Source: Polytrichum commune (lineage: Eukaryota > Streptophyta > Polytrichopsida > Polytrichales > Polytrichaceae). Taken from it: a DNA stretch of 64,000 nucleotides. The number at the start of each line of letters is the position of its first letter. The first letter of the stretch is position 1. The translations under genes were made by a program, and so were the position numbers. The DNA is taken from contig OX485805.1 of the NCBI GenBank assembly GCA_950295325.1, positions 52,848,758-52,912,757 of the forward strand. Reading direction: 5' to 3'. A model generated the notes under the pieces. The model was not told the DNA's origin and searched no databases. It worked only from the letters and a program-made list of their open reading frames with translations. Shown piece after piece: positions 11,716 to 39,797 of the stretch.

Positions 11716-11720
11716 TTAAT

Positions 11721-12090
11721 ACCAAAGGTGCCTAATTCAAATACTTATCTTTATTGGACACCTATATTTGAGTGGTATGTGATTAGTTGTGGCTCCAAGA
11801 ATGAATACCAAAAAGGCATGTGTTCAAATGAGATTGATTTATGTGCTCAAAATATGATAACCATTCTAAGCTCAATTCAATATATTTGGGGGAGTCTATA
11901 TGACCATTTAATGAGGAAGAGAATCTTTACTTTGATAATGAATAAGAAATTCATGTGAGCTCCAAACAGTATGAGGAAAGAGTCTCCAACCTCGGTTTGG
12001 ATTGCTAACTATCTTGCACTAATTGCGTGTTTCATATCCTAGGAGAAGTGGGCTAGTTGGAAGAAGTAACCATTTAAGACCCATCGACCT
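11721..12090 (+). mobile_element. MITE family B, copy 3
   Basis: Nearly complete copy: left part GGTGCCTAATTCAAATAC, middle GGCATGTGTTCAAATGAGAT, and a right end CCCATCGACCT followed by TA (12091-12092). The left terminus is degenerate. Confidence 0.75.
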
Positions 12091-12099
12091 TAGTTGATT

Positions 12100-16500: not shown

Positions 16501-16575
16501 TCAGTGAATAGATACCCCATGTCAAGGGGTGCCACAAGGACGAAGGTCACCGGGCCTTGTTGCTGATTAGTTACA

Positions 16576-17945
16576 CATAACTTACATCCATTTGAGTGGT
16601 GCGGGATTAGGTGTGGATCTAGGAACGGAATTCAAAAAGACATGTGATGAAAAGAGATTGGATTGCGTGTTCAAAACTTGTTAATCAATTTGGGTTCAGT
16701 ACTTAGCATAACTGGGGGGGTTCTTATATGGATTATTTATTGAGGAAGAGCATCCATATCTTTATAATTATATATAAAGACTCCTTGATCCTCCACCTAG
16801 CCATTGACGACGATACGATTTGGGTATCGAAAAATAAAAATAAAATGATATTGGTATGTTTATTGAAGAGTTTATGATTTGTATTGTCAAATGTGTATAA
16901 ATTTAAATTTGGATGTTGAGATCATCTATAATTTTTTTACTTGAGTATTGACATGCACCATGGGGAGGGGGCACTAAAATTTGTCCACGGGTAGATCACT
17001 CTAAGGCATTTTTGTGCACCACGTGCAGCTGGGGGTTTTTTGTTTTGGGGCTATTTACCTTCAAGGGTTGAATTAAAGCCTCCCTATAATTACTTAAATT
17101 TCAAAAATGGCCCATTTGTTTGCACCCTTCCATTACTTATATTGTCCAAGTCACTGCAATTTTTTGTACTCTATATTCCTTTTAAGTAATTTTGGACAGA
17201 CGGAAATCCCAATTATCATCCATCCCCGTGAGTCCTAAACCCATTTACATACCATACTAAACATACCTTCTGTGATCCTTATCTTCAACCCCTATATTAA
17301 TTTTACTAAAAAATAATGGCCCACGTTTTATGTCCATCTAACTTACTTATAATGGGATTGTCTACATTTAATGTCCCCTTCATTATTTGGAATTCCTTTA
17401 TAATTTTTATTTCAAATGATTTTAATCCTCTCTATATTATGCCGCACGTCGTTTTTAAAATGCACTAAGTGATCTACCCGTGAATTTGTCCCCTACATGT
17501 TTTCAAGAATCACTTTGAAGGATCATTTTCATGATAATACTTAAACATCATGTTTCATGATATTACTCAAATGGAAAAAAATAATAAGGTGAAATGATTA
17601 TTTTAAAAGCATTGGAGTTCCAAGTCAAATCAAAGATGTACTAAAAAATTAAAGTTAATCATTTCAAATTTTGAAATGTACGTGTATAGGATACATTGAC
17701 CAATAATGGCGGTTGAATTTTTTTTTAATGGTTGAGCACTTTGGAGTTCATCACAAAAGCATAAGCCATCTCCAACTTTAATCATCAATGGAGTGAGCAT
17801 GTTTCTTGTATGAACTCCAAGAATTATGAAGAAATTGGCATGCTGGTTTGGATTTGCTAATCATCTTGTAATAAAAATTGTGTGTTTCCTATCCTATAAG
17901 AAGTGGATGTAGGAGCTACAAGTGTTTGTCTAAGGCGTGTTTCCC
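16576..17945 (+). mobile_element. MITE family B copy 4, split by a later ~1-kb insertion
   Basis: Left half at 16576-16783 (TTTGAGTGGTGCGGGATTAG, AAGACATGTGATGAAAAGAG, then GAGGAAGAGCATCC). Right half at about 17790-17945 (TGAACTCCAAGAATTATGAA, TTGGATTTGCTAATCATCTT, CCTATCCTATAAGAAGTGG). The two halves join in the order of intact copies. The DNA between them, about 1 kb, includes the complete family C element at 16986-17482. Confidence 0.65.
16986..17482. mobile_element. hAT-like MITE family C, copy 1
   Basis: A 497-bp element starting CACGGGTAGATCACT with the same sequence inverted at the right end. It is flanked by a perfect 8-bp duplication AATTTGTC at 16978-16985 and 17483-17490, typical of hAT transposition. 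Subterminal CACGTGC on the left and its ACGTGC counterpart on the right form part of the inverted repeat. No transposase frame. Confidence 0.85.
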
Positions 17946-17949
17946 TTAA

Positions 17950-19440
17950 ATTGGCTCACCTGGATCCCCATCACCATTCCACCCTTGCTTCAAAAGGTAA
18001 GTGGGCTTATTTTGGTTACTTATCTTAATCGGGCAACTATATTTGAGGATATTTGAGTGGTGTGTGGTTAGGTGTGGATCTAAGAACAAACATCTCTCTT
18101 ATACATGGAGGAACGGTGTTTTTTGTCTACAATGAATGGGGGGATTTTTATGCACCTCTCAATATTTTTTCCCTCCCTATTTGTAGATAAAAAACTACTT
18201 TTATGTATTTTTAGCACCCTATATTTATTTGTAATTTTTAGAGGGGCTAATTTTTGGCACACTATTTTTTTATGAATTGTACAAACCAAAAGGTGGACGG
18301 AATATTATGGCATTGTGATACCGACTATGTGAGCAAACAAACATTTCATACCATTCAAATTATAATTCATTTGGTTTCAATTAGTAATACCAATCCTAAA
18401 TCATTCAAAGTGCCATTCAAAACACACCCAATAGTGCTTGGATATTGGTTAAAGGGTTACCAATAAACATGGGTATATCAAAATATACAAGCTGAAATGC
18501 ACAAGTTGTAAACACAAATAGGACAAAACAAGAAATACAATCAGTTGTGACAAGACATACAATTTGGCACAACTACCTACTCCAAAAAAACAAGGTTGCA
18601 TTCAAGTACAAGAAAGCTAAATACAAAAAATTAAAAACACGTACTTTAATTGTGTTCACAAACACATTCAACTATAGTCCCATTCAAACTTTGTAACAAA
18701 CAACTATAATGTGAAGGGTTAGGATACAACTATGCACCCTCCAATACTATCAATATACATGTTCAACATCCTCTACAATGTCATGATAAGACTAATAATT
18801 TGTGAGAGGTTTAGCACTAATGACAACGAATATCTAAAACTAGTTGATGGCATGAGGGGGGGGGGGCAACCTTTGAAGTCTTCAACGACTCCGCCTTGTC
18901 TTCCTCCCAAAAATCCCATGACATTTCCCTCGATACTACACACTTCTTCATCCAAGTAGTCAAACCCATAATTATCTTAATGATTCTGCTACACACTTTT
19001 AGAGGGATCCTATGTATGTGACCCCATTTTTTTTTCTACTGATTACTAAAATGGAGGAATTATTCACCACCCTATTTTACATATATCATGTAGGGGACAT
19101 ATTTCCAATGCTATGGTAGATCTAACAAAATTATAAATTTTATCCTAAACGAATTAAATTGACCCTAATTTCTACCTCACATGGTTTTTTAAAATTCCGA
19201 TAATCACTTCCCCGAGACTAATTGTAAACCTCGGTGTAATGTCACCAACACTAAATGTTAACCCAACATTATTTGTCATTCCTTGTAAAATAAGCAGAAG
19301 GGTGTGAACTTCAAATTAAGAGTTCTTTCTGTAAGTAGATCACGGAACTAGAGCAAACTCTCTCATGAGCACAATATTGACTTATACTGGAATAAAATTT
19401 ACACACTCCAGTAGCCAATGGCTCCCAACCTTCACAACAC
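17950..19440. other. Intergenic with a family B fragment and a poly(G) run
   Basis: 17999-18095 resembles the left part of family B (TTTGAGTGGTGTGTGGTTAG). An 11-G run lies at 18856-18866. No gene recognised. Confidence 0.4.
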
Positions 19441-19450
19441 AATCTTTCTA

Positions 19451-19763
19451 AGGTAACGGGGCACATTCCCACTCGGGTCCTTAAACCGCTCACTAGACCT
19501 ATTCAAACAAGAGGTACATTATAGCTTCGTACCTCAAATTTCTATGTAATCATGGTGTACATTTTTGGGGTGAGTGGTTTTGGGTACCCATATGAGTTCT
19601 CCTTCCAAAATTCATAACTAATTCAATATTAATCCAAAATTAATTATTCCAATTGGTCCAATTTCCAATGTACTTTGCACATCTTCCAAGATTGATTCCC
19701 CCTTAATAACTCCCCAATGAACATGCCAATCTGAAATTCGAGCGGGAATGTGCCCCGTTACCT
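19451..19763. mobile_element. MITE family A, copy 2 (TA-flanked)
   Basis: 313 bp, the same length as copy 1 at 727-1039, between TA dinucleotides (19449-19450 and 19764-19765). Its termini read AGGTAACGGGGCACATTCCC at both ends, differing from copy 1 at two adjacent bases that are changed identically at both ends. The interior is almost identical to copy 1. Confidence 0.85.
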
Positions 19764-19765
19764 TA

Positions 19766-20180
19766 TGCCACACAAATCTAGACCCCAACTTTGAAACCCT
19801 ACTGACATCGATCCAATCCGAACAGAGAATGCGTAATCAGATGACCTTTGGCGAAGAGAATCGGCAAAGAAATCGTAATCGGGAAGGTGAAGAGAGTGAG
19901 TGTTTGTCTGTCTTCTCTGTCTGTATGTCTGCACACGCAGTGGATGAGTGGTGGCAGGAACGGAAGAGATCAAGGGAGGAGGGTTACATTGGTCAAATCC
20001 GACGGTTGAGAAAGCACAGACAACGTGGCCTCACCAGAAGCCATAAGTTGCTTTCATCGCCCATAGACTTCTTCTCGACAAGGCAAGAAAATATGAGTGG
20101 TTCAATGGAGAACCAATCGCAAAAACCCGAGTATAGTGTTTATAGGAAGCGTGGCTTGTGCCCCCTCCCCACATGACTTT
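19766..20180. other. GC-richer, exon- or promoter-like block beside MITE A2
   Basis: On the minus strand there is a TATAAAC motif near 20140, then a pyrimidine-rich stretch, then an ATG near 19973 opening about 71 codons that run into the MITE. On the plus strand an open frame of about 140 codons runs through the same bases. Neither resembles a family I know. The layout would fit a minus-strand gene start cut off or displaced by the MITE insertion, but this is inference. Confidence 0.25.
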
Positions 20181-20199
20181 AGCGAAGCCTAAAAAGTTG

Positions 20200-21342
20200 G
20201 TTCTAAAAACACGGCCTCTACACCATCAACATTATCTAGTGCCGAGCCCCAGTTGGCAAATGATGTGGCATGGCTTAAAAGTGGAGGTCTTAAGCCCCAA
20301 GCAGTGGTGATTTTTCACAAGGTCCCTAACATGTCTAGGGACATGTTCATAGAAAAAAAACATTTCCAATGGATGGGTTCTTAGAAAATGAACCGGTTTT
20401 TGGATGTGTCAAATTCACTTTGGACGGGTTCTAAAAATAACAATTTGTTTGGTAATTTTTTCCAAAAAAAATTAATGGTACAAACATCAATTACATTATG
20501 TCATATATGACATGTGAATATAAGCATAATGCAATCAAACCACTAATACCCAATCAATATATCAATCTTGAAGTGCTTGATTCGCCTACATACATTAATT
20601 CATCAACCACAAAATTTAGAATGGGGTGTACTGGAAAGATGCGAATCGACAGCAAAAGACAAATAACTGACGAACATTGAAGGCATAATTTGTCAAGATC
20701 CTATTGTTTCCAAGTGCAACCAGTCACATGTTGACATCTTTCGGTTTTTTTGGTTTTTTTTTCCTAATTTTTTACCAACATTGTAAGAGACTTATTTATA
20801 CCTCTTGCGGGACGGGTATTTTCCTTTTCAAACTGATTTTGGGACAGGTTGCAAATTTTTTTGCCTTTCAATTCAAGGTTTTTGGACATGGACGGGCAAA
20901 AAAATTGTGAAAAATCAGCCATGGCCCCAAGCACCGACCCTCCCATCAATACTTAGACATGAGCCAAGAATATAGGACTTTTAAAAGTGTCGCCTCCCGC
21001 CCTTGTGATTGGATGCTTTTTAGTCTTAGCTATGAGGGCACGAGGAGCTCCATTAACAAAAACCAATGGTAAGATAGATGACTAGTAAGGCATTTGGGGA
21101 TGGGACAAAAACTATCCAACATTCATTGCTTGGTAGATAAAACCATGAACATGTGTGAAAGCTACTTAACTACAACTTACTCAAAAATATCTGGAGTAAG
21201 TTCTTGTAGGTGCATTGGATAGCCGGATGCCTCCCCTATAACCAAGGGAGCTTTACCCGGGTTTTAGGAAAGACTTTGGTCATTTGGTAAAGTCAGGTAG
21301 GCAGGGGGAATTGGAATCATTTTTTTCTCATCTCTCCAACTA
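20200..21342. other. Intergenic, with a family E fragment
   Basis: 20705-20760 resembles the left part of repeat family E (CCAAGTGCAACCAGTCACAT, TTGACATCTTTCGG). Otherwise nothing recognised. Confidence 0.35.
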
Positions 21343-21510
21343 AGGGCCACTTCACACATGAGACTGAGAGCCCGTGACCATTACACTTCAAGCACTCTCA
21401 TTGATGGAAAAGGGGGACCCTATCCAAGGTCGCTTCACACTACGCTTGAGGGACCAACAGAGTATATTTGTGAATGCACGATGAATGTAAAGTCTTCTTG
21501 TGCCTTTGGC
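21343..21510. mobile_element. Truncated family F (Harbinger-like) fragment at the outer left junction
   Basis: Begins AAGGGCCACTTCACACATGA and carries GACCATTACACTTCAAGCAC and ACTACGCTTGAGGGACCAAC. These match, inverted, the right half of the intact element at 28870-29361. The fragment stops just where homology between the two large inverted arms begins. Confidence 0.6.
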
Positions 21511-23592
21511 ATGTCCACAAAGCCACCCATTCCCATCCTACTAAGTTTACATCCATGTCACTGCTCTCCTTGCATTGTCCACATCCTCACTTGAAAACTA
21601 TTACTGGCCTGTGAGTTACACAGTTACATGCACAATAAGAATAATGCTATAGGACAGTCTTCCACGGTCTTCGGACTTGTATAAAAGTTATATGCTATGA
21701 ACTTTGTGTGATACCAACCTTCTTCTCTTATATCCCAAAAATCTAGGAACCGGATGTTCCCAGCTTAAACCTCACTCCTTGTCGTCACATTTCTCTCCCA
21801 TATATCGTGGGTTTTGACATTAAAACGAACCACAACAGAATTCCAACCACACGCTCGAATACATCATGTTGTCATTATTGCAATGTTGATTTTATGTTAT
21901 TTCATAATGTCACATGCTACACTAATTCTCCTTTATCAGGCATCCATGTGAACATTACATAACTCCTTAACATCACGTGCACTTTGGTTGCCGGGGGCGT
22001 GATATTACAGGGTTTAGGGTTTCATTTGGTAAACTTAACATGGAGATCTAAGGCAGGGCTACTATGTGTAAGGTGAGTGCACCTATCATGGACAATTTCA
22101 ACATATGTAGGTGTTTTCATAACATGATCAAAATAATAAGAGCACATTAGCGAATCCAAATGAGGATCTCTTTGGAATTTGTTTGGATAAAAAGTCATTA
22201 AGGATTTATTATAATAATATTTTCTTCCATATATGTAAATTTCATTACTTAGATATCACTGCAAGTATATGGGATTGGGTCCTAGGCAATTGTCATGCAT
22301 TATCCAAAACTTGTCATGCATCACTAGAAAATATGAAAACCAACCACATGCAATGATAAATTTGCATTGTTCTTTCGCCTACATAGGACAATTGCCTCAA
22401 AATCAAAAGTTGGTAATGTAAAATACCTACATGTTGGAATCCGCCATAAATCATGGTTTCATGATTGGTCCTCTCACCTTAGTAATTCAATGAGATCATG
22501 CGATGCCTTTTGGTCACTCTTGAATACTTTCTATGGATGTTTTATACTTTTCTCTACAACAAAATTTGCACGCTCTAGATGCCCAAGGATTCGAAATGTC
22601 CACATCAGCTCATCAGGTAACAAAACCAGATTCAGGTCATCAAGTGGGTGGGATGGAGCTTATTTTGGAGGGTAGTTTGCAAGTTGGCATGTAGGCCTTC
22701 ATCATGTCAATCTCAAAGAAATTAGGAAAACATGTGGACATGATGTTTGTTTTCTTCACACCCAATATGATGTTGCAGAGATATTGCAAAACCCAAGCCG
22801 GTCTACACTGATATCAAAACGAGACTGATGTGTACAAAACACAACAGACACCATTTCAGCCTTATCAACTCCATGGACCCCGAAGTTCAAAACATATCAC
22901 AGGCTAGTTATCATCTCATTCTCACATACAATTGCTAGCACATCTATTCAATAACCAAATACATTGTCTAAGCAAACAAATACAAAATTGTGTTTACATC
23001 AGCAATATTTTCTGACAAAGAGGGAATACCAAATGTGCTCCTTTTAAATGACCATGCATTTGTCCAAGAGGAATGGATGCAGGCCTGCCCTGCACAAGGC
23101 CAAATTTTGGAATCCTCTACCAGAAAAGCATTTGCATCAATGGTCAAGGCGCAAGGAACACCAAGTACAACGTGACTGACGGAATACCACTTAATGTACC
23201 ACTACATTGCATTACTTGCTATTTCTGCAAATCCTCATCCAGAACAAATCTCACTTATTGTTTCCATTTGTTTACAACCTTGAAACTACCTAAATGACAA
23301 CCTATTGCCAAGAGGAATTGAAAGTGCGGCCATACACGACTAGAGTGACCAAATTTGCTCATTACACATTTAAATCTGGGTCGCACCTATATACATGTCT
23401 TGTCCTAAGGTAGAGTGCAATTGATGAATGAGGCCTCTGTTGACATGGCTAGGTAAAAAATGGTAGCATATAGCTCTAATGAGCACTATTGTGCATCTTG
23501 GAGACCTTGGGAGACCTTCATGACCTTTTCCGGGTTCATCCATTTGCCAAAAAGTACAAATCAGGTACATGTAACCTTGCAGCTGCTTTTAT

Positions 23593-26500
23593 TTACCAAG
23601 AACCCACAGCTCCAGCAGTTGGGTTCTGGAAAGCTTTGAACTGCCAGTTGGTCTGTAATGCATAAGGCTCTGAGATTGTTACACCAGCTTCTGTGCAATT
23701 CGCCACCTGTGCCAAAGTCCAACAACGTCCCAGGATCAAAAACTTTGTACCAAAGAAAATAAAATGAAACTGCACTCTTTTACAAACTGTAGGTACGACA
23801 ATGAAAAACTGGAAGTACAGTTGCTTGATTTTAGAATTTCTCTGGTCTTGAGACCTTGGTGTAAACCCATCCTTAAAAAGTAACCTACGAAGAGACAAAC
23901 CTGGAATTTGTTGATTGCAGAGCGGTCCCGGTAAAACAAGACCAGCATACACTTCTCCAGCAGCTTCATGCCCTCCTCCAGAGTCATGTCTTCCTTCCAC
24001 TCATCACGAAAGATTGGGCGAGCAAGATGGTTTCCAAATCCGGTAGCCACGTGATCATCCACATAATGCACACCAATCATGGTGACCTGAACACAAAACC
24101 ATGTGTCAAAAATATGGAGAACTGTCTAACATCACCTCACAAGAAGACATTAGTCATGACAGGTGTCACCAAGTTGAAAAACCACCAAACTCATCCCCCT
24201 CTGAAACAACATCTAAGTCTGTGTCTCTTTTTGACACCCTCCATCTTTGGAATCCAATAGTGAAAAGATGCGGAGAGCAATAGAGGATACGCTAATACAA
24301 GTGCAATGATGCACTAGTCAAGCCATCAACATGATCAGCACCATGAAATTGTATATAAAATGAAGCCAATGAAGTCCATGTTATCCTAATAAAATGATAT
24401 TCTGTGAGGTGAAGTGCCAAGGAAGCATCTTAAGGAACGATAACATACCACACCCAGGTATTTTTTGCCATTTTTCACTCCACCAAGGACAAGGCTATTC
24501 CAGAGAGGATCAAACTTGTTGCGGCGTTGATACATTACACGGTTGAGATAGTTGTGAATTTCCACAGGTCCAAGGTTGTTACCGTCGTCCCACATGTAAT
24601 CAGTGGTTCTGACATTCAAGATACGATTCATTGTCCAACTCATAGTCAATAGTCAACTTCCTCATCCATTTCTTAGCACTCAACTATTCAAATCAAAAAG
24701 CACCACAACACATCTAGCAAGAAATACACGAAATTTATGAATCGTCAAGAACTTCAGGAAAAAACCAGATGTCTAGATGTGCATCTCTGTGCCAAGAACT
24801 TACATGAGCTGATCTAGGATTTGCATAATTGCTTGAAAGTCACTGACTTCACCGCTGGCGCCAAGAACGGTGCTCTTGCCTACACTTCTCAAGCGCTCCA
24901 CACTTTTGTACCTCACAGTTGACCCATATGAACCTGAAACAATCAAACAGAATCAAACTTGTGAGCAATTTCATTTTGCATGGATTTTTCTGAACTAACA
25001 TTTGTGCTGAAAGAAGGGGAAAGAAAGTTACTTGTGCAATCCATCGGATGCAGATACAGTTCTGGAAAGCATAAATTACTGCAAGTTATATATTCTCAGT
25101 CTCTGATTATTCAGTCACAGGAGGTGAGAGCTACTGAGGCTCATGTTTATCATCTCCAGATATGTCAAACCTTCATTTATTTCTGTGCCACACCATGTTT
25201 TTCACGGGTTTCAATCAATAGCTTTACAAAATCTGAAGCTTTCATAGATTAGTGTCGAAGCTGCCAATGGCACTCTGAAACCAACTGAGTTATCACTTTG
25301 GACCTAGGATGCTCAACACCCTCTCCTGTTTGCATTTGATTCTGCATGTACACTTCTTTCTGCCTATGCTCACCAAACCCTATTCAATCCTTAGCTGCTG
25401 ATCCCCATGCCTATATTCATATGACCTGTGAAGGTTGCAAGAGGAACAAAGCAACTTCCTCTTTCAAGGGCAGTATGTAAAGACTGGAATGTGTCTTGAT
25501 TAGCAAAACCAAACTTAAGCCGAGCTCATAATAGGACATGGCGTCCGAAGGTGATAAGTGATATATGTCTTACTGATAACACTAATATTACTTCTGAAAC
25601 TCAGTACATTGAATGATGTTTTCGTTGCCATAGGATAATTATTTTAATTTGCAGGTTGCAAGCATGCAGTGAGGAGGGCCACACCTGCTGTGTCAGAAGC
25701 TAAGAGAATCCCATCCTTATACTTTATGCCAAGGACCGATGTCCCTGTGACATATGGATATCTGTCACGATAGAATACAAACATTTCAAACTGTCAGCTG
25801 ATGCACACAAAATGCAAAGAAAATGCAAAATGAAAATTGGGGGGCAAAAATAGGGCCACATACTGGGTGTGCTTGGCTGGGCTTGGCATCAAGCTGAAGC
25901 TGTGGTTGGGCCCCATCAGTGACCGGTCCACATAGTGCGCCTCTGCACCATCTAGCTTCTCCGCACTTACCTGCAACTCCCACCAACCACCTTCAAATTC
26001 AAAACTCCCCCCAAAAGACCTCGACGGCAGTGCCAATCAGCTACACCCTAGAAAATTCCATGGGGACCCCCAGCTCATAATTCACCTGCATTGCTTGTCA
26101 AATATGAAATTTACAGATCATAGACTACCAGCTCTAAAATCAAAACTCCTCTAAAAAGAGCAACGCCGCTTCCACCATCAGCGCCGATCGTCAAACCCAG
26201 GAAAGTCCCATGAGTACCCCCAGCTCACTCAACCCATAATTAACCTACATCGCTTGTGAAATTAGAAAATTTACGGATCATAGAGTACCACCTTCAAAAT
26301 CAAAACTCTCCATAAAAACACAACACCATTTGCACCCTCAGTACCACTCTCCCCGATCCTAGAACGTTCCATGAGTAACCCCCACCTCATTCAACCCATA
26401 ACAAACCTACATCGCTTGTGATATTTACAGATTATAAGGTACCAGCTTCAAATTCAAAAAACACGACACCACTTCTAACATCGGTGCTAATCACCCAAAC

Positions 26501-26849
26501 CCTTAAAAAATCCCATAAGTGCCTACCCCCACTTCACCCAACACATAAAGCATCTGCATCGCTTATGAAACTTGCAGATTATGTGGTGCCCGCGCCAAAT
26601 TACAACACGACCTAGAAATTTTCACTCTAGACACTCAAGGACTGGACCCGGACAGAAAGGCATCTTCTTGGGCACATTGAGGATCGTGTGAAAGTTTTGT
26701 GGAATGAGTACTTATTAGCTTCGAGATCACCAACTTGCAAGAACCACGACACCATCCAGAGTCTCTATCAATTACCCGAACCCTAAAGAATTGGCAGTTT
26801 CTAAGTAAATGCAAGTGCCGCAACTTACTTGACCCAGAGAGAACGGCAT
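23593..26849 (-). CDS. PBG1: 20S proteasome subunit beta type-4 (beta7), left copy
   Basis: Non-catalytic beta7 subunit of the 20S proteasome core. Exons, in coding order, are 26829-26849, 25864-25970, 25685-25761, 24804-24933, 24449-24608, 23901-24086 and 23593-23706; all introns have GT...AG borders and the frame closes at 795 nt (264 codons plus stop). Family landmarks are QYPYVTGTSVLGIKYKDG at the propeptide-mature junction (Thr42 is the expected mature start), GSYGST, DDGNNLGPVEIHNYL, RRNKFDPLWNSLVLGG, DDHVATGFGNHLARP and a NPTAG...GSW C-terminus. The short first exon (MPFSLGQ) is inferred; the alternative is Met26 in exon 2, giving 239 aa. The product appears identical to the right copy. 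In exon 4 the Gly codon at the splice is GGT here and GGG in the other copy. Confidence 0.9.
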
Positions 26850-27022
26850 CGTTGGAGAGAGCTGGAAATCGGATGGTCTGTGAGGATGAGTAAATCAAGT
26901 GCAAGTAGAATGAACGAATTAGCAGCAATCTAGCGGGAGCGATGGTGCAGTGTCGACGAAGGCAGGTGAAGAAACATGAGCAATGGCAATGGCACAGCAA
27001 TTAGGGCATGGATTCAGGTCCC

Positions 27023-27067
27023 GAACGAGGTTCTGAGTGAGGGCCCACCTACTTCAGGACCTCGTTC
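27023..27067. repeat. Imperfect hairpin upstream of the left proteasome gene
   Basis: GAACGAGGTTCTGAGT (27023-27038) pairs with ACTTCAGGACCTCGTTC (27051-27067), with one mismatch and one bulge. It lies about 175 bp upstream of the inferred start codon. The same structure is in the other arm at 30887-30931. Confidence 0.6.
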
Positions 27068-28869
27068 CGTCTACTGAATGTCTACCGAACCTTGTCACTT
27101 AAAGTGATGTGGCCCGATGTTAAATCAGCACACTAATTTAAGTTTCATTTTAGACTGACAAAGACAATTTCAAGTTGTAAGTCACAAAAATTATAACCTC
27201 AATGTTAATGAGGATTTTGTAATGTTTTTGACCTCCAAGTTAACTACAAGTTTTATTTATGGTTTACTTTCAAAATGAAATCCCAATCAATTGTTTGTTT
27301 ACTAATTGGAAGTGTACATATGTGTTGGATTTTAGACCTTGAAGGTGAAGTGCACTCAATATGAGATTTATAATCAAGCGGCCCTCAAGAATGAAAAGGC
27401 AATATTTTTTCAAAGTTGAGCAGGGCAAGCAACAATTTTTGGTCAAGTTCAAAAATTAACCCAAAAAATAAAACTTTGGGGGACTTTGCTACCAAATATT
27501 GTGTGCCCATATTTGAGGTAGTAATTTTGGTTCATAATCACTTAGCCGCCCCCAAAAAGTTTGAAATAAATGTATAGGGTAATGTACGGGCCTCCTAATA
27601 CCCTTTCATGCATAAGTAACTCCCAATGACTAGTGTTTTTTTGTGACAAATTGGACTCATAAGCAATGCAATTCTTAAGAGTTCCAAGCTACTATTGCCA
27701 TGGTCTATGTGACAATTTATACAAACCCCCATCAAGTATTAAAAATGTTTTTTCATTTGGTTTGTGAGATTGAAACTAAACTTTACATTTTCCATTGCAT
27801 AGAGGAAGTGAAATTACAGATATGTGTTGTGGTGATCAAATGTATACAATGTGTATTTAAATAAATATAATTTTGTTTGAGCCCAAATATCTCTATTTTA
27901 CCTTTCAAACATGTGTTGGTCCAACTAGGAGAATGCAATGGATTGTAATGTTGTGGGTACACCATTTGATTTGATGAACTAATGGTTGAGATGGGTAGTT
28001 TTGTCCAAGATGTTGTGTTGGGATGATGGGTGTCTAATGTGGTTGTGGTTGTTTAGTAGATAGATGATGTTTAGGTTGTTTATCAGTATGAAGAAATCTT
28101 GATGTTGTTGGCGTGTTGCAGTGACAACTAGAAGCAAGACGTATAGTTTTGCTTTGAGCATGTTTTTTAGGCCAAGGAGGCACTCCATGATTCAAAGGTT
28201 GTTGGTTAGACTATAAATGCCGGGGCCAACTATTTTTCCTACGTTGTTTTCATTAGGGGGTATGAATGATCCGTTTGTGTATGTGCAATGTTGCGGGCTA
28301 TATTTAAAGGGTGAGGGGAGCCTAGGGAGTATAGCTTGAAGGGTAATGGGGGGATGGGGTGTGTTGTCGTCAAGGTGGATGCTTTTGGGGGCTTTGTGTG
28401 CCATGCATGGGAGCAGTTGACTTTGTATATGGGGGCATGCCTTCGATGGTTCGGGTTTTTATATGGACATTGTATAAGTCTAATATGTTGGTTGTAAGGC
28501 CATTGACCACGTGTGGTTTTTGGGAGGAGTGCGTTGGTTATGTATGCAAATATTCGATATGTAAGAGGTTTCATGTTGGTGGAGGTATTTTGGGCCATCC
28601 TGGTGAGGGGTTGTATTTGAGGGTGTGTTGGTGGGATGGTCATGATGGTGTGGGTGTCGTTATAGTTAGTTGGTTACATGTCTTCTTTGTGGGTGGATAT
28701 GATGATGGTGACATTGTTGATGTTTGCATGGGCGGCCATCCTTGCTTGGCGGGCTGATTCCATGGTGGATTGCAATTTTGTTGGATGGGCGAGGCCTATT
28801 CCTTCCCATTTCAATGATTGGGTGAGTCCGGATGAGCCAAAGATTATGTCACGGGTGTGTGGGGAATTA

Positions 28870-29361
28870 GGGCCACTTCACACACGGTCCAAGAGCCATG
28901 ACCATGAAATAGTGAGAGCCCAAAAGAAAGTGTTCAAAGGTTGTCCCAAGACACCTCCAAAATCATGTAGTGTGGTCATAGATCCTCAAGTGTAGTGTGA
29001 AGCCATATGTGACCTCAACCAAATGCTACTTCAATGAATTTCTCTTCATGTGGGTCCTCATACATGATAAAAATAGAATAAATCAACGGCTGTGAGCATT
29101 TAGAGTGCCATGGTCTCCTAGTTTGGTGTTAAGCCTACCTCCAAAGGTGGTTTTTGAAAATAATGCAAGTGACCATGAACATAATCCATTTGATGCCATG
29201 TAGGAATACATGTAAACTTTACTTTTGTCTTGCATTCACATACTCCGCTTGTCCCTCAAGCGTATTGTGAAGTGAACTTGGACCGGCTCTGCCTTCTCCA
29301 TCAATGAGAGTGCTTGAAGTGTAATGGTCATGGGTTCACAATCTCGTGTGTGAAGTGGCCC
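28870..29361. mobile_element. Harbinger-like MITE family F, in the spacer
   Basis: 492 bp with perfect terminal inverted repeats GGGCCACTTCACACACG (17 bp). It is flanked by the direct 3-bp duplication TTA at 28867-28869 and 29362-29364, the signature of PIF/Harbinger insertion. No transposase frame. Relatives lie at 21343 (truncated) and 48975-49474. Confidence 0.8.
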
Positions 29362-29767
29362 TTATAACGGGTGAATGTTGTTGGCACATGAGTGGTGAGG
29401 AGAATTAGGAATGGAATATATAGAAGGCCTCTATTAGGATGTGTAGGGTGGTGGGATGTAGGGTTTGGTGGTTGTTGATAGGGTTGAGTTTTCGGTTTGT
29501 TTCCAGGGGAGGATGGTCACATGTCTTTGTGTGAGCCATAGGATTTTTATGACTAAGTCTTGGGGTGGGTGTTGTAGGAAGTTGGTCAAGGGGTGGTGGT
29601 GGTTCTCGTTGAAGCGTTCGCATAACCATTATAGTCTTGTGAGTGGGATAGTGGCAAGGTGGTCGCTAGTTTGGTAAAAATGTTTGCTTCAATTGCTTGT
29701 ATGAATGGTGGTATTTATATCTTTGTTTGGGTTGCATTCTTTGATAAAGAGGGTTAGGTTGGGGGTA

Positions 29768-30460
29768 TCAATGAGTGGGAGGATGAATCTTTTGTCTTTT
29801 GATTGGGAGATATTGATGCATGAGTCGCACGAGATTGTTGTGTTTTTTTTTTCCATATTGGGTTCGAGTGAATTGGTTGAATAGGAGGAGGTTGTGTGCG
29901 AGGGTGGCGTTGTCCAGTTGAAAATGTAGGGCCTCATCACCCCATTTGGTGGTGGTGTATGTGGGTGTCGTCCATTGGTAGCAAAGGTATTGCCTTTTGA
30001 TACTTTGTGCACCCCATTTATCTTTGCTTGTGCGGGTTTTGGTGTTGATGATAGATTGGATTGGGGGGGGGGGGGGGGCGCGTTGTAGGAGGTGATCAAT
30101 ATGCGAGTTTGGTATGGGTGAGAAGTGGTGATGACTTGTTGGTTGTTGGGCGGGTTTATGGAGAAAATGTGGTGGGTTAGTTGGAGGACATTTTTGATGA
30201 ACTTTGGGGTTGTTTTGTATGTGTGTTTGAATTCCTCGGGGGAGAGGATTTGGTGTGTAGTGGGGTGTTGGATTTGTCAAAGGATGGTGATGTTGGACAT
30301 GTATAGCTTGCGAAAGGTGTTTTTTGGAGAGTTGTTGTTGGTTGGGGGTTATTGATATGTAGTTTGGTGAGTTTCTCCAAGCAAGTTCGATTTGGGTTTG
30401 CATTATGGAGAAATCTTGGTTACGTGTGCTTATGTGTATTTCGTAGTCCACTTCAAACAT
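29768..30460 (-). CDS. Unidentified 230-codon open frame in the spacer
   Basis: Continuous minus-strand frame rich in Pro, Thr, His, Asn and Gln, as expected from A+C-rich sequence. It includes less biased stretches (KWGDEALHFQLDNATLAHNL, then NQFTRTQYGKKKHNNLVRLM) that look protein-like. A neighbouring frame at 29689-30099 overlaps it. No known domain, zinc-finger pattern or catalytic motif is evident. It may be transposon-derived, or an accident of composition: few stops arise where the opposite strand lacks C and A. I would not call it a gene without a homology hit. Confidence 0.2.
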   Translation of the reverse strand: MFEVDYEIHISTRNQDFSIMQTQIELAWRNSPNYISITPNQQQLSKKHLSQAIHVQHHHPLTNPTPHYTPNPLPRGIQTHIQNNPKVHQKCPPTNPPHFLHKPAQQPTSHHHFSPIPNSHIDHLLQRAPPPPPIQSIINTKTRTSKDKWGAQSIKRQYLCYQWTTPTYTTTKWGDEALHFQLDNATLAHNLLLFNQFTRTQYGKKKHNNLVRLMHQYLPIKRQKIHPPTH

Positions 30461-30802
30461 GAACGTGGTTTGGGTGATGGGTGATCGTGAGCATGCTTGG
30501 TATTTGAAATGTGGTAGATAATGGGATCTTTCATACCTGGCGGTGATATGTTTTATGAGGCCTTAGTATATATATCCGAGTTGACCTTGCTTGTTAAGTG
30601 CATGTAATAATTGCTTGCCAATGCAATTCACGTAGTTAGTTGGTGGGATGTGTTCTATGTGGGTGGATATGATGATGGCAACATTGTTGTTGTTTGCCTG
30701 CGTGGCCATCCTTGCCCGGTGGATTGGTTCCATGTTGGAATGTGGGGGTCTGTTAGGTGTGAGCATCTCTACCATCGACTCTGGAAGGTTAATTATTTTC
30801 AA

Positions 30803-30865
30803 TAAAGTTTTCCTTCAAGAACAGTGGGACCTAAAATCGGGCCACATCACTTTAAGTGACAAGGT
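30803..30865. repeat. Dispersed repeat I crossing the inner right junction
   Basis: TTCCTTCAAGAACAGTGGGA and the bases that follow, to TGACAAGG, resemble 52630-52690 (TTCCTCTCAAGAACATTGAG... to GAGAAGGCCAAGG). The similarity spans the point where arm homology starts (30836), so the right junction lies inside a repeat. Confidence 0.5.
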
Positions 30866-30886
30866 TGGGTAGACATTCTGTAGACG

Positions 30887-30931
30887 GAACGAGGTCCTGA
30901 AGTAGGTGGGCCCTCACTCAGAACCTCGTTC
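30887..30931. repeat. Imperfect hairpin upstream of the right proteasome gene
   Basis: GAACGAGGTCCTGAAGT (30887-30903) pairs with ACTCAGAACCTCGTTC (30916-30931). The same structure is at 27023-27067 in the left arm. It lies about 175 bp upstream of the inferred start codon. Confidence 0.6.
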
Positions 30932-31104
30932 GGGACCTGAATCCATGCCCTAATTGCAGTGCCATTGCCACTGCTCATGTTTCTTCACCTGCCTTCGTCG
31001 ACACTGCACCATCGCTCCCGCTAGATTGCTGCTAATTCGTTCATTCTACTTGCACTTGATTTACTCATCCTCACAGACCATCCGATTTCCAGCTCTCTCC
31101 AACG

Positions 31105-34100
31105 ATGCCGTTCTCTCTGGGTCAAGTAAGTTGCTGCACTTGCATGTAACTAGAAATTGCCAATTCTTTAGGGTTCGGGTAATTGATAGAGACTCTGGAC
31201 GGTGTCGTGGTTCTTGCAAGTTGGTGATCTCGAAGCTAATAAGTACTCATTCCACAAAACTTTCACACGATCCTCAATGTGCCCAAGAAGATGCCTTTCT
31301 GTCCGGGTCCAGTCCTTGAGTGTCTAGAGTGAAAATTTCTAGGTCGTGTTGTAATTTGGCGCGGGCACCACATAATCTGCAAGTTTCATAAGCGATGCAG
31401 ATGCTTTATGTGTTGGGTGAAGTGGGGGTAGGCACTTATGGGATTTTTTAAGGGTTTGGGTGATTAGCACCGATGTTAGAAGTGGTGTCGTGATTTTTGA
31501 ATTTGAAGCTGGTACCTTATAATCTGTAAATATCACAAGCGATGTAGGTTTGTTATGGGTTGAATGAGGTGGGGGTTACTCATGGAACGTTCTAGGATCG
31601 GGGAGAGTGGTACTGAGGGTGCAAATGGTGTTGTGTTTTTATGGAGAGTTTTGATTTTGAAGGTGGTACTCTATGATCCGTAAATTTTCTAATTTCACAA
31701 GCGATGTAGGTTAATTATGGGTTGAGTGAGCTGGGGGTACTCATGGGACTTTCCTGGGTTTGACGATCGGCACTGATAGTGGAAGCGGTGCTGTGCTTTT
31801 TAGAGGAGTTTTGATTTTAGAGCTGGTAGTCTATGATCTGTAAATTTCATATTTGACAAGCAATGCAGGTGAATTATGAGCTGGGGGTCCCCATGGAATT
31901 TTCTAGGGTTTAGGTGATTGGCACTGCCGTCGAAAGTGGCGTCGTGGTCTTTTAGGGTGAGTTTTGAATTTGAAGGTGGTTGGTGGGAGTTGCAGGTAAG
32001 TGCGGAGAAGCTAGATGGTGCAGAGGCGCACTATGTGGACCGGTCACTGATGGGGCCCAACCACAGCTTCAGCTTGATGCCAAGCCCAGCCAAGCACACC
32101 CAGTATGTGGCCCTATTTTTGCCCCCCAATTTTCATTTTGCATTTTCTTTGCATTTTGTGTGTATCAGCTGACAGTTTGAAATGTTTGTATTCTATCGTG
32201 ACAGATATCCATATGTCACAGGGACATCGGTCCTTGGCATAAAGTATAAGGATGGGATTCTCTTAGCTTCTGACACAGCAGGTGTGGCCCTCCTCACTGC
32301 ATGCTTGCAACCTGCAAATTAAAATAATTATCCTAGGCAAGGAAAACATCATTCAATGTACTGAGTTTCAGAAGTAATATTAGTGTTATCAGTAAGACAT
32401 ATATCACATATCACCTTCGGACGCCATGTCCTATTATGAGCTCGGCTTAAGTTTGGTTTTGCTAATCAAGACACATTCCAGTCTTTACATACTGCCCTTG
32501 AACGAGGAAGTTGCTTTGTTCCTCTTGCAACCTTCACAGGTCATATGAATATAGGCATGGGGACCAGCAGCTAAGGATTGAATAGGGTTTGGTGAGCATA
32601 GGCAGAAAGAAGTGTACATGCAGACTCAAATGCAAACAGGAGAGCGTGTTGAGCATCCTAGGTCCAAAGTGATAATTCAGATGGTTTCAGAGTGCCATTA
32701 GCAGTTTTGACACTAATCCATGAAAGCTTCAGATTTTGTAAAGCTATTGACTGAAACCCGTGAAAAACATGATGTGGCACAGAAATAAATGAAGGTTTGA
32801 CATGTCTGGAGATGATAAACATGAGCCTCAGTAGCTCTCACCTCCTGTGACTGAATAATCAGAGACTGAGAATATATAACTTACAGTAAATTATGCTTTC
32901 CAGAACTGTATCTGCATCCGATGGATTGCACAAGTAACTTTCTTTCCCCTTCTTTCAGCACAAATGTTAGTTCAAAAAAATCCATGCAAAACGAAATTGC
33001 TCACAAGTTTGATTCTGTTTGATTGTTTCAGGGTCATATGGGTCAACTGTGAGGTACAAAAGTGTGGAGCGCTTGAGAAGTGTAGGCAAGAGCACCGTTC
33101 TTGGCGCCAGCGGTGAAGTCAGTGACTTTCAAGCAATTATGCAAATCCTAGATCAGCTCATGTAAGTTCTTGGCACAGAGATGCACATCTAGACATCTGG
33201 TTTTTTCCTGAAGTTCTTGACGATTCATAAATTTCGTGTATTTCTTGCTAGATGTGTTGTGGTGCTTTTTGATTTGAATAGTTGAGTGCTAAGAAATGGA
33301 TGAGGAAGTTGACTATTGACTATGAGTTGGACAATGAATCGTATCTTGAATGTCAGAACCACTGATTACATGTGGGACGACGGTAACAACCTTGGACCTG
33401 TGGAAATTCACAACTATCTCAACCGTGTAATGTATCAACGCCGCAACAAGTTTGATCCTCTCTGGAATAGCCTTGTCCTTGGTGGAGTGAAAAATGGCAA
33501 AAAATACCTGGGTGTGGTATGTTATCGTTCCTTAAGATGCTTCCTTGGCACTTCACCTCACAGAATATCATTTTATTAGGACAACATGGACTTCATTGGC
33601 TTCATTTTACATACAATTTCATGGTGCTGATCATGTTGATGGCTTGAGTAGTGCATCATTTCACTTGTATTAGCGTATCCTCTATTGCTCTCCGCATCTT
33701 TCACTATTGGATTCCAAAGATGGAGGGTGTCAAAAAGAGACACAGACTTAGATGTTGTTTCAGAGGGGGATGAGTTTGGTGGTTCTTCAACTTGGTGACA
33801 CCTGTCTTCTTGTGAGGTGATGTTAGACAGTTTTCCATATTTTTGACACATGGTTTTGTGTTCAGGTCACCATGATTGGTGTGCACTATGTGGATGATCA
33901 CGTGGCTACCGGATTTGGAAACCATCTTGCTCGCCCAATCTTTCGTGATGAGTGGAAGGAAGACATGACTCTGGAGGAGGGCATGAAGCTGCTGGAGAAG
34001 TGTATGCTGGTCTTGTTTTACCGGGACCGCTCTGCAATCAACAAATTCCAGGTTTGTCTCTTCGTAGGTTACTTTTTACAGATGGGTTCGCAAGACCAGA

Positions 34101-34629
34101 GAAATTCCAAAATTAAGCAATCATATTGGTGGAGAGGAAAATTTGAACTGGAGGAGTTGCACTAGTGTTTGGGTCCAAGGTTTGAGTAAAATGAAACGGC
34201 ACCAATGCGGCGTCGCTTTCTTGCCAAATCTGGCAGTCCCAACTCAAGAAAATGCTACTCCCAAGTTTGAGAAACCAATCCTCAAGCTTGGGTCCAATCA
34301 CGATTTCAAGAACAGTGTCCATTAAGGGTGTTTTAGACCCTGACTTTCTTGGACCCGGACCCTAATGTAGAACCCGCCCTAAGAAGTCTGGCCTATATTG
34401 TCACTCTACTCTGTTATCCGGTACTTTCAGTTTTTCATTGTTGTACCTACAGTTTCATTTTACTTTCTTTGGTACAAAGTTTTTGATGCCGTGACTTTGT
34501 TGGACTTGGGCACAGGTGGCGAATTGCACAGAAGCTGGTGTAACAATCTCAGAGCCTTATGCATTACAGACCAACTGGCAGTTCAAAGCTTTCCAGAACC
34601 CAACTGCTGGAGCTGTGGGTTCTTGGTAA
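31105..34629 (+). CDS. PBG1: 20S proteasome subunit beta type-4 (beta7), right copy
   Basis: Second, head-to-head copy of the beta7 core subunit gene. Exons are 31105-31125, 31996-32102, 32205-32281, 33032-33161, 33357-33516, 33866-34051 and 34516-34629; lengths (21, 107, 77, 130, 160, 186, 114 nt) equal those of the left copy, and the frame closes at 264 codons plus stop. Mature protein would start at Thr42 of KHTQYPYVTGTS, giving about 223 residues, close to the usual beta7 size. By family knowledge this subunit is structural, with no active-site role. An AATAAA overlaps the stop codon (TGGTAAATAAAAG), unusually close to act as a poly(A) signal. The last intron is about 300 bp longer than in the left copy because of an insertion. 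Both copies look functional; expression of each cannot be judged from sequence. Confidence 0.9.
34119..34421. mobile_element. ~300-bp insertion in the last intron of the right proteasome gene
   Basis: Absent from the matching intron of the left copy, where AAGCAA is followed directly by CTGTACTTCCAGTTTTTC. The extra DNA has GTTTGGGTCCAAGG near its left side and CTTGGACCCGGACCC near its right side, a candidate terminal inverted repeat. No clean target duplication is visible; the class is unknown. Confidence 0.6.
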
Positions 34630-36545
34630 ATAAAAGCAGCTGCAAGGTTACGTGTACCTGATTTGTACTTTTTTGCAAATGGATGAACCCCGAAAAGGTC
34701 GTGAAGGTCTCCCAAGGTCTCCAAGATGCACAATAGTGCTCATTAGAGCTATATGCTACCATTTTTTAGCTAGCCATGTCAACAGAGGCCTCATTCATCA
34801 ATTGCACTCTACCGCAGGACAAAGACATGTATATAGGTGCGACCCAGATTTAAATGTGTAATGAGCAAATTTGGTCACTCTAGTCGTGTATGGCCGCACT
34901 TTCACTTCCTCTTGGCAATAGGTTGTCATTTAGGTAGTTTCAAGGTTGTAAACAAATGGAAACAATAAGTGAGATTGGTTCTTGATGAGGATTTGCAGAA
35001 ATGGCAATTAATGCAATGTAGTGGTACATACGTGGTGGTCCGTCAGTCACGTTGTACTTGGTGTTCTTTGCGCCTTGACCATTGATGCAAATGCTTTTCT
35101 GGTAGAGGATTCCCAAATTTGTCCTTGTGCAGGGCAGGCCCGCATCCATTCCTCGTTGACAAATGCATGGTCATTTAAAAGGAGCACATTTGGTTTTCCC
35201 TCTTTGTCAGAAAATATTGCTGATGTAATCACAATTTTGTATTTGTTTGCTTAGACAATGGAGTTGGTTATTGAATAGATGTGCTAGCAATTGTATGTGA
35301 GAATGAGATGATAACTAGCCTGTGATATGTTTTGAACTTCGGGGTCCATGGAGTTGATAAGGCTGAAATGGTGTCTGTTGTGTTTTGTACACATCAGTCT
35401 CGTTTTGATATCAGTGTAGACCAGCTTGGGTTTGGCAATATCTCCGTAACATCATCTTGGGTGTGAAGAAAACAAACATCATGTCCACATGTTTTCCTAA
35501 TTTCTTTGAGATTAACACGTGGAAGGCCTACACGGGAACTTGCAAATTACTCTTCAAAACAAGCTCCATTGCACCCACCTGATGACCTGAATCCGGTTTT
35601 GTTACTAGATGAGGTTATGTGAACATTTCGAGTGCAAATTTTGTTGTAGAGAAAAGTATAAAACATCCATAGAAAGTATTCAAGAGTGACCAAAAGGCAT
35701 CGCATGATCTCATTGAATTACTAAGGTGAGAGGACCAATCATGAAACCATGATTTATGGCGGATTCCAACATGTAGGTATTTTACATTACCAACTTTTGA
35801 TTTCGAGGCAATTGTCCTATGTAGGCGAAAGAACAATGCAAATTTATCATTGCATGTGGTTGGTTTTCATATTTTCTAGTGATGCATGACAAGTTTTGGA
35901 TAATGCATGACAATTGCCTAGGACCCAATCCCATATACTTGCAGTGATATCTAAGTAATGAAATTTACATATATGGAAGAAAATATTATTATAATAAATC
36001 CTTAATGACTTTTTATCCAAACAAATTCCAAAGAGATCCTCATTTGGATTCGCTAATGTGCTCTTATTATTTTGATCATGTTATGAAAACACCTACATAT
36101 GTTGAAATTGTCCATGATAGGTGCACTCACCTTACACATAGTAGCCCTGCCTTAGATCTCCATGTTAAGTTTACCAAATGAAACCCTAAACCCTGTAATA
36201 TCACGCCCCCGGCAACCAAAGTGCACGTGATGTTAAGGAGTTATGTAATGTTCACATGGATGCCTGATAAAGGAGAATTAGTGTAGCATGTGACATTATG
36301 AAATAACATAAAATCAACATTGCAATAATGACAACATGATGTATTCGAGCGTGTGGTTGGAATTCTGTTGTGGTTCGTTTTAATGTCAAAACCCACGATA
36401 TATGGGAGAGAAATGTGACGACAACGAGCGAGGTTTAAGCTGGGAACATCCAGTCCCTAAATTTTTGGGATATAAGAGAAGAAGGTTGGTATCACACAAA
36501 GTTCATAGTGTATAACTTCTTTCTATACAAGCCAAAAGACGGCTG

Positions 36546-36628
36546 GGGCGAACCAACCTGTACACTAGTTCCTTGGAGGCAAGGGTTTAAGCATCCAACA
36601 AGGAACGAGTGTATGGGTTGGTTCGCCC
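36546..36628. mobile_element. Family D element, copy 2 (right arm only)
   Basis: 83 bp with GGGCGAACCAACC at the left and GGTTGGTTCGCCC at the right. The left arm has an uninterrupted version of this site at about 21668-21676 (TCTTCGGAC). Flanks AAAAGACGG and AGAAGACCG could be an imperfect 9-bp target duplication. Confidence 0.8.
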
Positions 36629-37019
36629 AAATCTCAGAAGACCGTGGAAGACTGTCCTGTAGCACTATTGTTATTGTGCATGTCACTGTGTAACTCACAG
36701 GTCAGGACACTAATAACTTAGTAGTTTTTAATAAGTGAGGATGTGGAGAAGGCAAGGAGGGCAGTGACATAGATGTTAAATCAGTAGGATGGGAATTGGT
36801 GGCTTTGTGGGCATCACACACTTGCCATCCTCTTTTGGCTGCCACATGCCATGTATGCATCTGCACTTTGAGGGCGGTAGCATGCCCTTTTTGTTAAAGT
36901 GCCTCCAACCCCTCAATTTCGCCCGGCTTGGCTCCACACAATTGATATTATAAGTTATGTGTCGACTCTTTCTTAATCTCTTAAAGTAGAGTTGTTCCAC
37001 GCCTCTACTAAAGAAGAAC

Positions 37020-37389
37020 GTATGTTATTTAACTATTTTTCGCAATGCACGCACTTCTTGTAGGCCCAAGAAACACACAATCATTGCAAGGTAGTTAGCA
37101 AATCCACATCGTCTCCGTAGCGATTGGCCTCATAATATTCGGAGCTTGCATGAACATCTGCCATTCATTCTTTAAGCGAAGATTCTCGCAATGCACCAAG
37201 TGGTCATATAAGTCTCGCCAATCGTGTTGACCATTGAGCTTAGAATGGGTAGCACATTTAGAGCATGCAGTGCAATCTTTTTCAAATACATATTTTTTTC
37301 GGTTCTGTTCGTAAATCCACACGTGATCACATACCACTAAGATATAGGCGTCCGTATTATTGTTGTATTAGAATTAGGCAAGTCCACCT
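37020..37389 (-). mobile_element. MITE family B, copy 5
   Basis: Reverse orientation: ends ATTAGGCAAGTCCACCT followed by TA (37390-37391), with AGCACATTTAGAGCATGCAG and CCACACGTGATCACATACCA inside. The left end is approximate. Confidence 0.65.
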
Positions 37390-38037
37390 TAGTAGGCATG
37401 GACTTCTGAGAAGTGTTGTTTCAAGCATGTTTCTTGATCATGAAGAGCATGCCTACCTACTGGGTCTAAGTTACAAGTTGCTACAAGAGCAACCATTTAT
37501 GCTATTTATTTGGAAGCATGACGTCCTCGCCGTGTAAATGTATTTGTATGTGCAATTACGAGCATATTTTTTATTTTGCTAAAATATCTAATTTCAATGC
37601 AACTGAAATGACCTTTTAACATTGAGCAAGAAGGATGGTTCACTTTGAGTTACTTCTAGTGCAAGAGATATTAAACTCTAGATTCAAAAATTATAGCTAC
37701 AAATGTTCCTTCCTTAGAGCAATTTTCTAGTTTTGATTTTAGGGTAAAAGACGTTCTAGACTATGATTCCTTTGGAACAAACCATGCATGTTTGTTATAG
37801 GATGCAAGATCCAAGAGGATGGTACATTGACAACTTAACAAAATCGTCAATTTTTGGGACCAATGTGAGCCAAAAACTAACACCAATGGGAAATTGTTAG
37901 ATTCATCTAGAATGTAGCAAGTCTATGCATTTTAGTATGCATATCCAAGAAGGTGGCACATTCCTAAATGGCCTCAAAAAAAGAAAGAATACTATGAGTT
38001 TTAGGATCACATGACTTACTAAACTTAAGGTAGGCAT

Positions 38038-38372
38038 GCCTAAATCAAACATAACAACAATGTAGACACCTATACATGAGTGCTACTGGATGTGGATCTA
38101 AAACTAGCACCGAAAACACATGTGTTCAAAAAAATTTGACTGTGTACTCAAAATATACTAACCATTCTAGGTCCCATAGTCAGCATGAATGGGGGACCTG
38201 TAACCACTTAATGAGCATGATAATCTTCACTTTGATAATCATTAAAATATCACGAGATGCATGGCTACGGGCACGATTTGGAGTCACTAATCATCTTGCA
38301 CTAATTGCTTGTTCTATATCCTACGAGCCATGGATGAAGAGAGAAAAGTATCCATGTAAGACCCATCTACCT
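38038..38372 (+). mobile_element. MITE family B, copy 6 (TA-flanked)
   Basis: 335 bp, starting AGGTAGGCATGCCTAAATC and ending ACCCATCTACCT, between TA dinucleotides at 38036-38037 and 38373-38374. One of the best-defined copies. Confidence 0.8.
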
Positions 38373-38749
38373 TAGTGGTAATTCTAGCACAAAGATGACG
38401 ATGTCATCATAGTATCTAGGTTGGAGAAGACGCATCAAGAGCCAACTTCAAACTGCCCTCTACTTAGTGTGAAATGAATTTGAGATTTATTGAGGCGCGC
38501 AATTGATCAACTTGAAGTGCACCAAAACATGGCTCAGATATTGGGCCCGGATTTGCAGTAAGTACCGTGATCACAATGGTGGGACCTCTCCATGTAGAAT
38601 GCAAAGCGGGGGTTGATTACAATATTGTTATTACGATGGAATTTATCACAATGTGACTCCCATGACACTTTCCCTCTTGTGAACACCCATGCAAAGCCCA
38701 GGAGTAGCATTGTTTTCATGCAAGTGTTTATTTTGTATAAAGTAGACGT

Positions 38750-39100
38750 GTGTTATTTTCCCTCTACACTCTCTTCTCGGAGGATATGAAACACATAATC
38801 AATGCAAGATATGTAATTAGCAAACCTAAGTTGTGTATGTAGCCATGCACCTCGTGGTTTCCGGAGCTCATATGAAGAGTTTGCTTTTGTAATCAAAGTG
38901 TTGATTCTTGAACTCATCAAGTGATCATGTAGGTCGCCCAATCATGTTGACCATTGAACCTAGAATGATTAACACATTGTGAGTATTTTAGTTCGATCTC
39001 TTCTAAACACATGTCTTTTTGGTGTCCGTTCTTAGATTCACACCTAACCACGTACCACTCAGATTATTGTTGTGTTGGAATTAGGCACGGCAGCCTTTAA
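38750..39100 (-). mobile_element. MITE family B, copy 7
   Basis: Reverse copy containing ACACATGTCTTTTTGGTGTC, CACACCTAACCACGTACCAC and GGAATTAGGCACGGCAGCCT. Ends approximate. Confidence 0.65.
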
Positions 39101-39311: not shown

Positions 39312-39680
39312 TTTTGATGCTCTTGCATCTGCTGCTGCTGTGAAGCTGAAGAAAAATCCTTGCATCTACTGCTGCTGTGAAGCTGAAGATAATTTGTAGG
39401 CTCCGTTCTGTTAGAGATTTTGATGTTCTTGCATCTGCTGCTACTGTGAAGCGCAAGAAAAAAATTGTGGGCTCCTTTTCTGGGAGATTTTGCTCATGCA
39501 TTTGTTGCTGTGAAGCTGAAGAGAATTTGTGTGCTCCATTCTTTGGAGATTTTGGTGTTCTTGCATCTGCTGCTACTGTGAAGCTGGAGATAATTGTGTT
39601 CTCCGTTTTGTTTTGGAGACTTTGATGTTCTTGCATCTACTGCCGCTGTGAAGCTCAAGAAAAATTTGTGGGCTCCATTT
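39312..39680. repeat. Degenerate tandem repeat just upstream of the cyclase-like gene
   Basis: CTTGCATCTGCTGCTGCTG followed by TGAAGCTGAAG recurs in variants near 39325, 39360, 39428, 39492, 39560 and 39630, mostly about 65-70 bp apart. Intervening parts share GGGCTCC and GGAGATTTTG. The last copy ends about 120 bp before the start codon, so the array probably lies in the promoter or 5' UTR. On the minus strand it gives a repeated peptide (FTVAADART), which I take to be incidental. Confidence 0.75.
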
Positions 39681-39797
39681 TCATGGAAATTTTGTATGAA
39701 CATAAGATTTTCATGAATTTGTAGTTGCCAACCAATTCGATTACTTCCTTGTTGGGTTGCAGAGTGGTGGCGACCTAAGGTTGCATTTCCGGTGACG

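Follow-up and report, generated by a model that had tools for sequence, protein, structure and literature searches.

Two genes for the proteasome subunit beta7, predicted to encode identical proteins, lie head to head on the arms of a large inverted repeat in Polytrichum commune. The repeat is located in a 64,000-nucleotide stretch of contig OX485805.1 (assembly GCA_950295325.1, positions 52,848,758 to 52,912,757 of the forward strand), hereafter the window. We consider it very probable that this is a real and fairly recent inverted segmental duplication of a plant nuclear genome, made at the DNA level, in which both copies most likely supply interchangeable beta7 and patches of the arms appear homogenized by gene conversion. 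A duplication of this type is ordinary in itself; the subunit makes it notable, since the supply of beta7 is stated to limit proteasome assembly in yeast.

When the window was compared with itself by BLASTN, a single inverted repeat dominated, with 21511-27122 matching 36814-30832; one shuffled version of the window (n = 1) gave zero matches under the same settings. The match comprised three pieces: an outermost (21511-21675/36814-36634, 82% identity), a middle (21685-23772/36518-34450, 96.0% identity), and an inner piece (23864-27122/34088-30832, 97.6% identity). The self-comparison bears out the large inverted duplication that had been proposed in the initial annotation, including the lengths of its arms and spacer (Table 1). 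The match over the whole length of the arms needs qualification: the outermost 165–180 bp are just ~82% alike, and the left arm lacks ~300 bp of intron 6 sequence as well as a 97-bp foldback element, both of which the right arm has. These two are the largest length differences between the arms, and small indels are present in left and right arm alike. In the alignment of the core (right-arm coordinates 30838-36518), 5245 columns match, 123 are mismatched, and 375 contain gaps, for an identity of 97.7%. The arms thus differ by substitutions and private indels, and the annotation was correct that this is not a simple mirrored assembly. Reverse-complementary arms that carry introns and flank, with no mirrored homology outside them, place the pair among inverted segmental duplications. 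The foldback element is probably a mobile element, because a copy 93% identical to it sits elsewhere in the window; it would have been inserted in the right arm after the duplication or else lost from the left arm.

Each arm holds a complete gene in seven exons, as had been annotated, and ~2 kb of 3' flank. The exon lengths are the same in both models (21, 107, 77, 130, 160, 186, and 114 nt), all six introns in each begin with GT and end with AG, and both reading frames are complete, with identical translations of 264 amino acids. The models are based on splice signals and protein homology rather than transcripts, and the first exon, which contributes seven residues, on splice signals alone. 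The start codons face each other across 4255 bp; the genes are therefore head to head and transcribed outward, in agreement with the annotated orientation. At this distance, a bidirectional promoter shared by the pair is unlikely. About 270 bp 5' of the start codon are common to both arms, and farther upstream the sequences of the two genes differ. Upstream of each gene there is a TGGGC motif, described as the core of the PRCE element (PMC6568242); the motif is weak evidence, because 0.38 occurrences are expected by chance per 267 bp. Intron 1 of both copies contains a tandem repeat with a period of ~160 bp (26084-26425 and 31382-31980).

The assignment to beta7 made in the initial annotation was upheld by the protein searches. 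The predicted protein contains the Pfam proteasome subunit domain PF00227 (residues 48-229, E-value 4.6e-33, 114.9 bits vs. a cutoff of 22.4). Its best match in the PDB was chain u of 7qve (7.6e-117), which we take to be the spinach proteasome; the closeness extends to the C-terminal tail and is indicative of a plant protein. Among the best 60 of 147 PDB matches, PSMB4 chains scored from 1e-65 to 1e-60 and yeast beta7/PRE4 chains from 1e-45 to 1e-43, while chains named as other beta subunits scored 1e-11 or weaker. The best 32 sequences all had E-values of 1.7e-27 or lower, and those among them that name a subunit were all PSMB4 or beta7/PRE4. Two chains labelled merely "Proteasome subunit beta" scored 1.7e-14 and 1.4e-13. 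The human "beta type-7" that also appears among the matches is presumably a different subunit under the other numbering. As judged from these homologies, both genes encode a subunit of the beta7 (PSMB4/PBG1/PRE4) group, nearer to beta7 chains than to those of the other beta subunits. Thr42 of the predicted protein lines up with the first residue of mature chains, 1iru_N among them, and the residues ahead of it may be a propeptide; PBG1 of Arabidopsis is described as being processed to an N-terminal threonine (PMC3594244).

Next, we compared the coding and noncoding divergence of the two copies. Of 795 coding sites, 2 differ between the copies, each by a synonymous change, and no amino acid is replaced. 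The noncoding comparison, which excluded coding and gap columns along with the diverged block of intron 6 (right-arm coordinates 34080-34450), covered 4499 columns, of which 112 differ. If one copy had been unconstrained, then replacements are expected to have accumulated at the 616 replacement sites: the noncoding rate predicts 7.7 (probability of none, 0.0005), the intron rate 5.9 (0.003), and the synonymous rate 3.5 (0.03). Since a complete lack of replacements would be improbable were even one copy free, both copies look maintained by purifying selection, which is favored over the loss of one, and both are probably functional. Compared with the rate in introns (P = 0.35) and with that in noncoding columns (P = 0.19), synonymous divergence was not significantly lower, and thus conversion specific to the exons is not needed to explain the result. 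Two points weigh against maintenance of both copies: at the synonymous rate the constraint on both is merely marginal (P = 0.03), and strong conversion could likewise hold one dispensable copy identical to the other.

The differences between the arms are not evenly spread. Over 29 blocks of 150 columns, the ratio of variance to mean was 4.5, a value reached in none of 5000 permutations. The longest noncoding run free of mismatches spans 620 columns of the 3' flank, and none of 20,000 permutations contained a run as long; one block of 150 columns in the same flank carries 19 differences. A hidden gene behind the identical tract was considered and rejected, as the region 34600-36902 had no Pfam match at an E-value of 0.1, the whole window had no Rfam match at the gathering score, ARAGORN found no tRNA, and the tract lacks a long open frame (Table 1). 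The simplest reading of the patchy divergence is gene conversion between the arms, which the clustering suggests. Against this, with only two sequences, conversion cannot be told apart from regional constraint or from variation in mutation rate, and the conversion test covered the same reduced set of noncoding columns. The combination of inverted arms with conversion-like identical tracts resembles the palindromic gene pairs of Y chromosomes that conversion has homogenized (PMC3403216), but unlike in those palindromes, the homogenization of the beta7 arms is patchy.

Table 1. Features of the inverted duplication and its surroundings (window coordinates)
Feature	Position	Strand	Remarks
Left arm	21511..27122	- (gene sense)	5612 bp; self-match to 30832-36814
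Right arm	30832..36814	+	5983 bp; inverted self-match to left arm
Spacer	27123..30831		3709 bp between arms
Left beta7 gene	23593..26849	-	7 exons; GT-AG introns; 264-aa frame
Left beta7 exons	26849-26829, 25970-25864, 25761-25685, 24933-24804, 24608-24449, 24086-23901, 23706-23593	-	
Right beta7 gene	31105..34629	+	7 exons; predicted protein identical to that of left copy
Right beta7 exons	31105-31125, 31996-32102, 32205-32281, 33032-33161, 33357-33516, 33866-34051, 34516-34629	+	
TGGGC motif upstream of right gene	30907..30911	+	Counterpart 27043-27047 on - strand, upstream of left gene
Extra intron 6 sequence	34121..34420 (ends approximate)	+	~300 bp in right copy, absent from left
Noncoding tract without mismatches	Right 35805..36424 / left 21779-22398		620 columns; longest stop-free stretch 77 codons
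Foldback element (probably mobile)	36539..36635		97 bp, right arm only; copy at 6664-6760, 93% identical
G+T-rich parts of spacer	28001-28866 and 29366-30740	+	~34% G, 36% T, 10-12% C
MITE-like element in spacer	28867..29365		Terminal inverted repeats GGGCCACTTCACAC; TTA on both sides
Truncated copy of spacer MITE family	21341..21501		Single end; ends ~10 bp off outer edge of left arm
Diverged copy of spacer MITE family	48976-49472		62%
Copies of dispersed repeat family	1363-1727, 11729-12094, 37037-37391, 38026-38376, 38756-39087, 41769-41988, 46133-46376, 49875-50221		

The arms could owe their arrangement to the assembly, either because two haplotypes of one locus were joined head to head or because a chimeric read folded back on itself. 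A divergence of 2.3% with indels is within the allelic range of outcrossing plants, and fold-back chimeras characteristically take the form of head-to-head palindromes. However, the homology stops at the arm ends: the flanks, 21.5 kb on the left and 27.2 kb on the right, show no mirrored continuation of it, and share just 35 short matches of 42-377 columns, which occur in both orientations at 64-86% identity and are mostly copies of dispersed repeats. The spacer places 3.7 kb of different sequence between the arms, and the window contains zero N. The arms also differ by private indels, of which the large ones are found on the right. Given the lack of mirrored homology past the arms, the lack of N, and the private indels, we judge such an artefact, in either form, to be very unlikely.

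A genuine duplication could also have arisen as a direct tandem pair, the left copy of which was inverted later by recombination between two oppositely oriented copies of a miniature inverted-repeat transposable element (MITE). One of these, presumably Tourist/PIF-Harbinger-like, lies in the spacer and the other is truncated at the outer edge of the left arm; their ends (21341-21501 and 29208-29364) are mutually inverted and bracket the left arm. The spacer element, however, has both of its termini and TTA on each side, as in an undisturbed insertion, and the G+T-rich composition of the spacer runs on across it. The TTA match is of three bases and is weak evidence taken alone. With the continuous composition beside it, we give a MITE-mediated inversion of a tandem pair very little chance.

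Finally, inverted duplicates of endogenous plant genes can act as silencing loci. In Arabidopsis, the tail-to-tail arrangement of PAI1-PAI4 lets transcripts of one PAI gene continue into the other, and the pair is silenced through the fold-back RNA (PMC3203196). The beta7 pair is likewise an inverted duplication of an endogenous plant gene, and transcripts across both of its arms, which are long and 97.7% alike, could give double-stranded RNA and then methylation or silencing of beta7, as an inverted duplicate does in the Arabidopsis strain Ws (PMC3203196). Yet this is barely credible for beta7, as the genes are head to head and divergent around the 3.7-kb spacer, so that neither gene's own transcript enters the other arm (an outside or cryptic promoter aside), both coding frames look conserved, and the silencing of an essential subunit should be costly.

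Herein, we describe the course of events under the inverted duplication that we prefer. A segment of ~5.7 kb, consisting of the whole beta7 gene together with ~270 bp 5' of the start codon and ~2 kb of downstream sequence, would have been copied in reverse orientation to a site 3.7 kb away. Because all six introns are retained in both genes, the copy would have been DNA-based. The truncated MITE that adjoins the left arm suggests that the outer edge of this arm is a rearrangement breakpoint; of the two copies, the left may therefore be the derived one. Both genes are most likely transcribed outward from their own core promoters, since they share the promoter-proximal sequence and the 264-amino-acid product, and both would contribute interchangeable beta7 to the 20S core particle. 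Substitutions, indels, and a transposon-like insertion have since set the arms apart, with patches apparently homogenized by gene conversion.

PBG1 of Arabidopsis is known as a single gene. Paralogous proteasome genes are reported to be common in plants (PMC6568242), and PBE1/PBE2 of Arabidopsis are an example of duplicated subunit genes (PMC3594244). The beta7 pair differs from the latter in being a local inverted copy with identical predicted products, whereas PBE1 and PBE2 are described as differing in sequence (PMC3594244). Among the matches listed in the open-licence literature, we found no earlier report of a beta7 duplication or of a comparable plant inverted duplicate.

The suggestion of the initial annotation that doubling beta7 could alter subunit balance is a hypothesis, as is an effect on proteasome assembly. 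A yeast study states that recruitment of beta7 drives the dimerization of half-proteasomes, that truncation of Ump1 is suppressed by overexpression of beta7, and that in the wild type beta7 availability is rate-limiting for 20S formation (PMC8961534); this last statement lends a dosage effect some plausibility. It is possible, although we think it unlikely, that the pair was kept for the rise in 20S assembly that a doubled beta7 dose would bring, while conversion from arm to arm kept the products identical. If true, a small-scale duplication affecting just one rate-limiting subunit would have been selected, contrary to the usual rule of dosage balance. Small-scale duplications are reportedly under-represented among genes for multi-component interactions (PMC9252495). 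A single core proteasome subunit that has been duplicated locally, and whose two copies both appear constrained, offers a natural test of that rule, and a sharper one for beta7, given its stated rate-limiting role in yeast (PMC8961534).

To survey the neighborhood of the arms, six-frame Pfam scans were run over 2000-21301, 27123-30832, and 34600-56151, minus two 48-base gaps, with an E-value threshold of 0.01 that was relaxed to 0.1 in the spacer and in the 3' flank on the right; 1-1999, 21302-27122 (mostly the left arm), 30833-34599, and 56152-64000 lay outside these scans. In the scanned regions, the sole match beyond the beta7 protein was to ASMase_C at ~46134-46319 (20.0 bits vs. a cutoff of 23.7). 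It is probably spurious, because it is below the cutoff and lies on a copy of a dispersed repeat family whose members, up to ~350 bp long, occur in both orientations. The spacer had no Pfam match in six frames at an E-value of 0.1. It contains a direct repeat of 110 bp (28663-28772 and 30633-30742, 83%), and at 27715-27862 a weak match of 157 columns (61-62%) to the 3' flank of the arms (23221-23375 and 34848-35002), the sole match between spacer and arms in a loose search. Beyond the arms, a stop-to-stop frame of 547 codons on the minus strand (13408-15048), with no Pfam match, overlaps direct repeats at 14872-15602. Tandem arrays are found at 46979-47456, with 179-bp units, and at 39359-39694, with units of ~70/132 bp. 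A further direct repeat of 318 bp links 724-1041 with 19448-19765, 18.7 kb apart and 97.5% identical.

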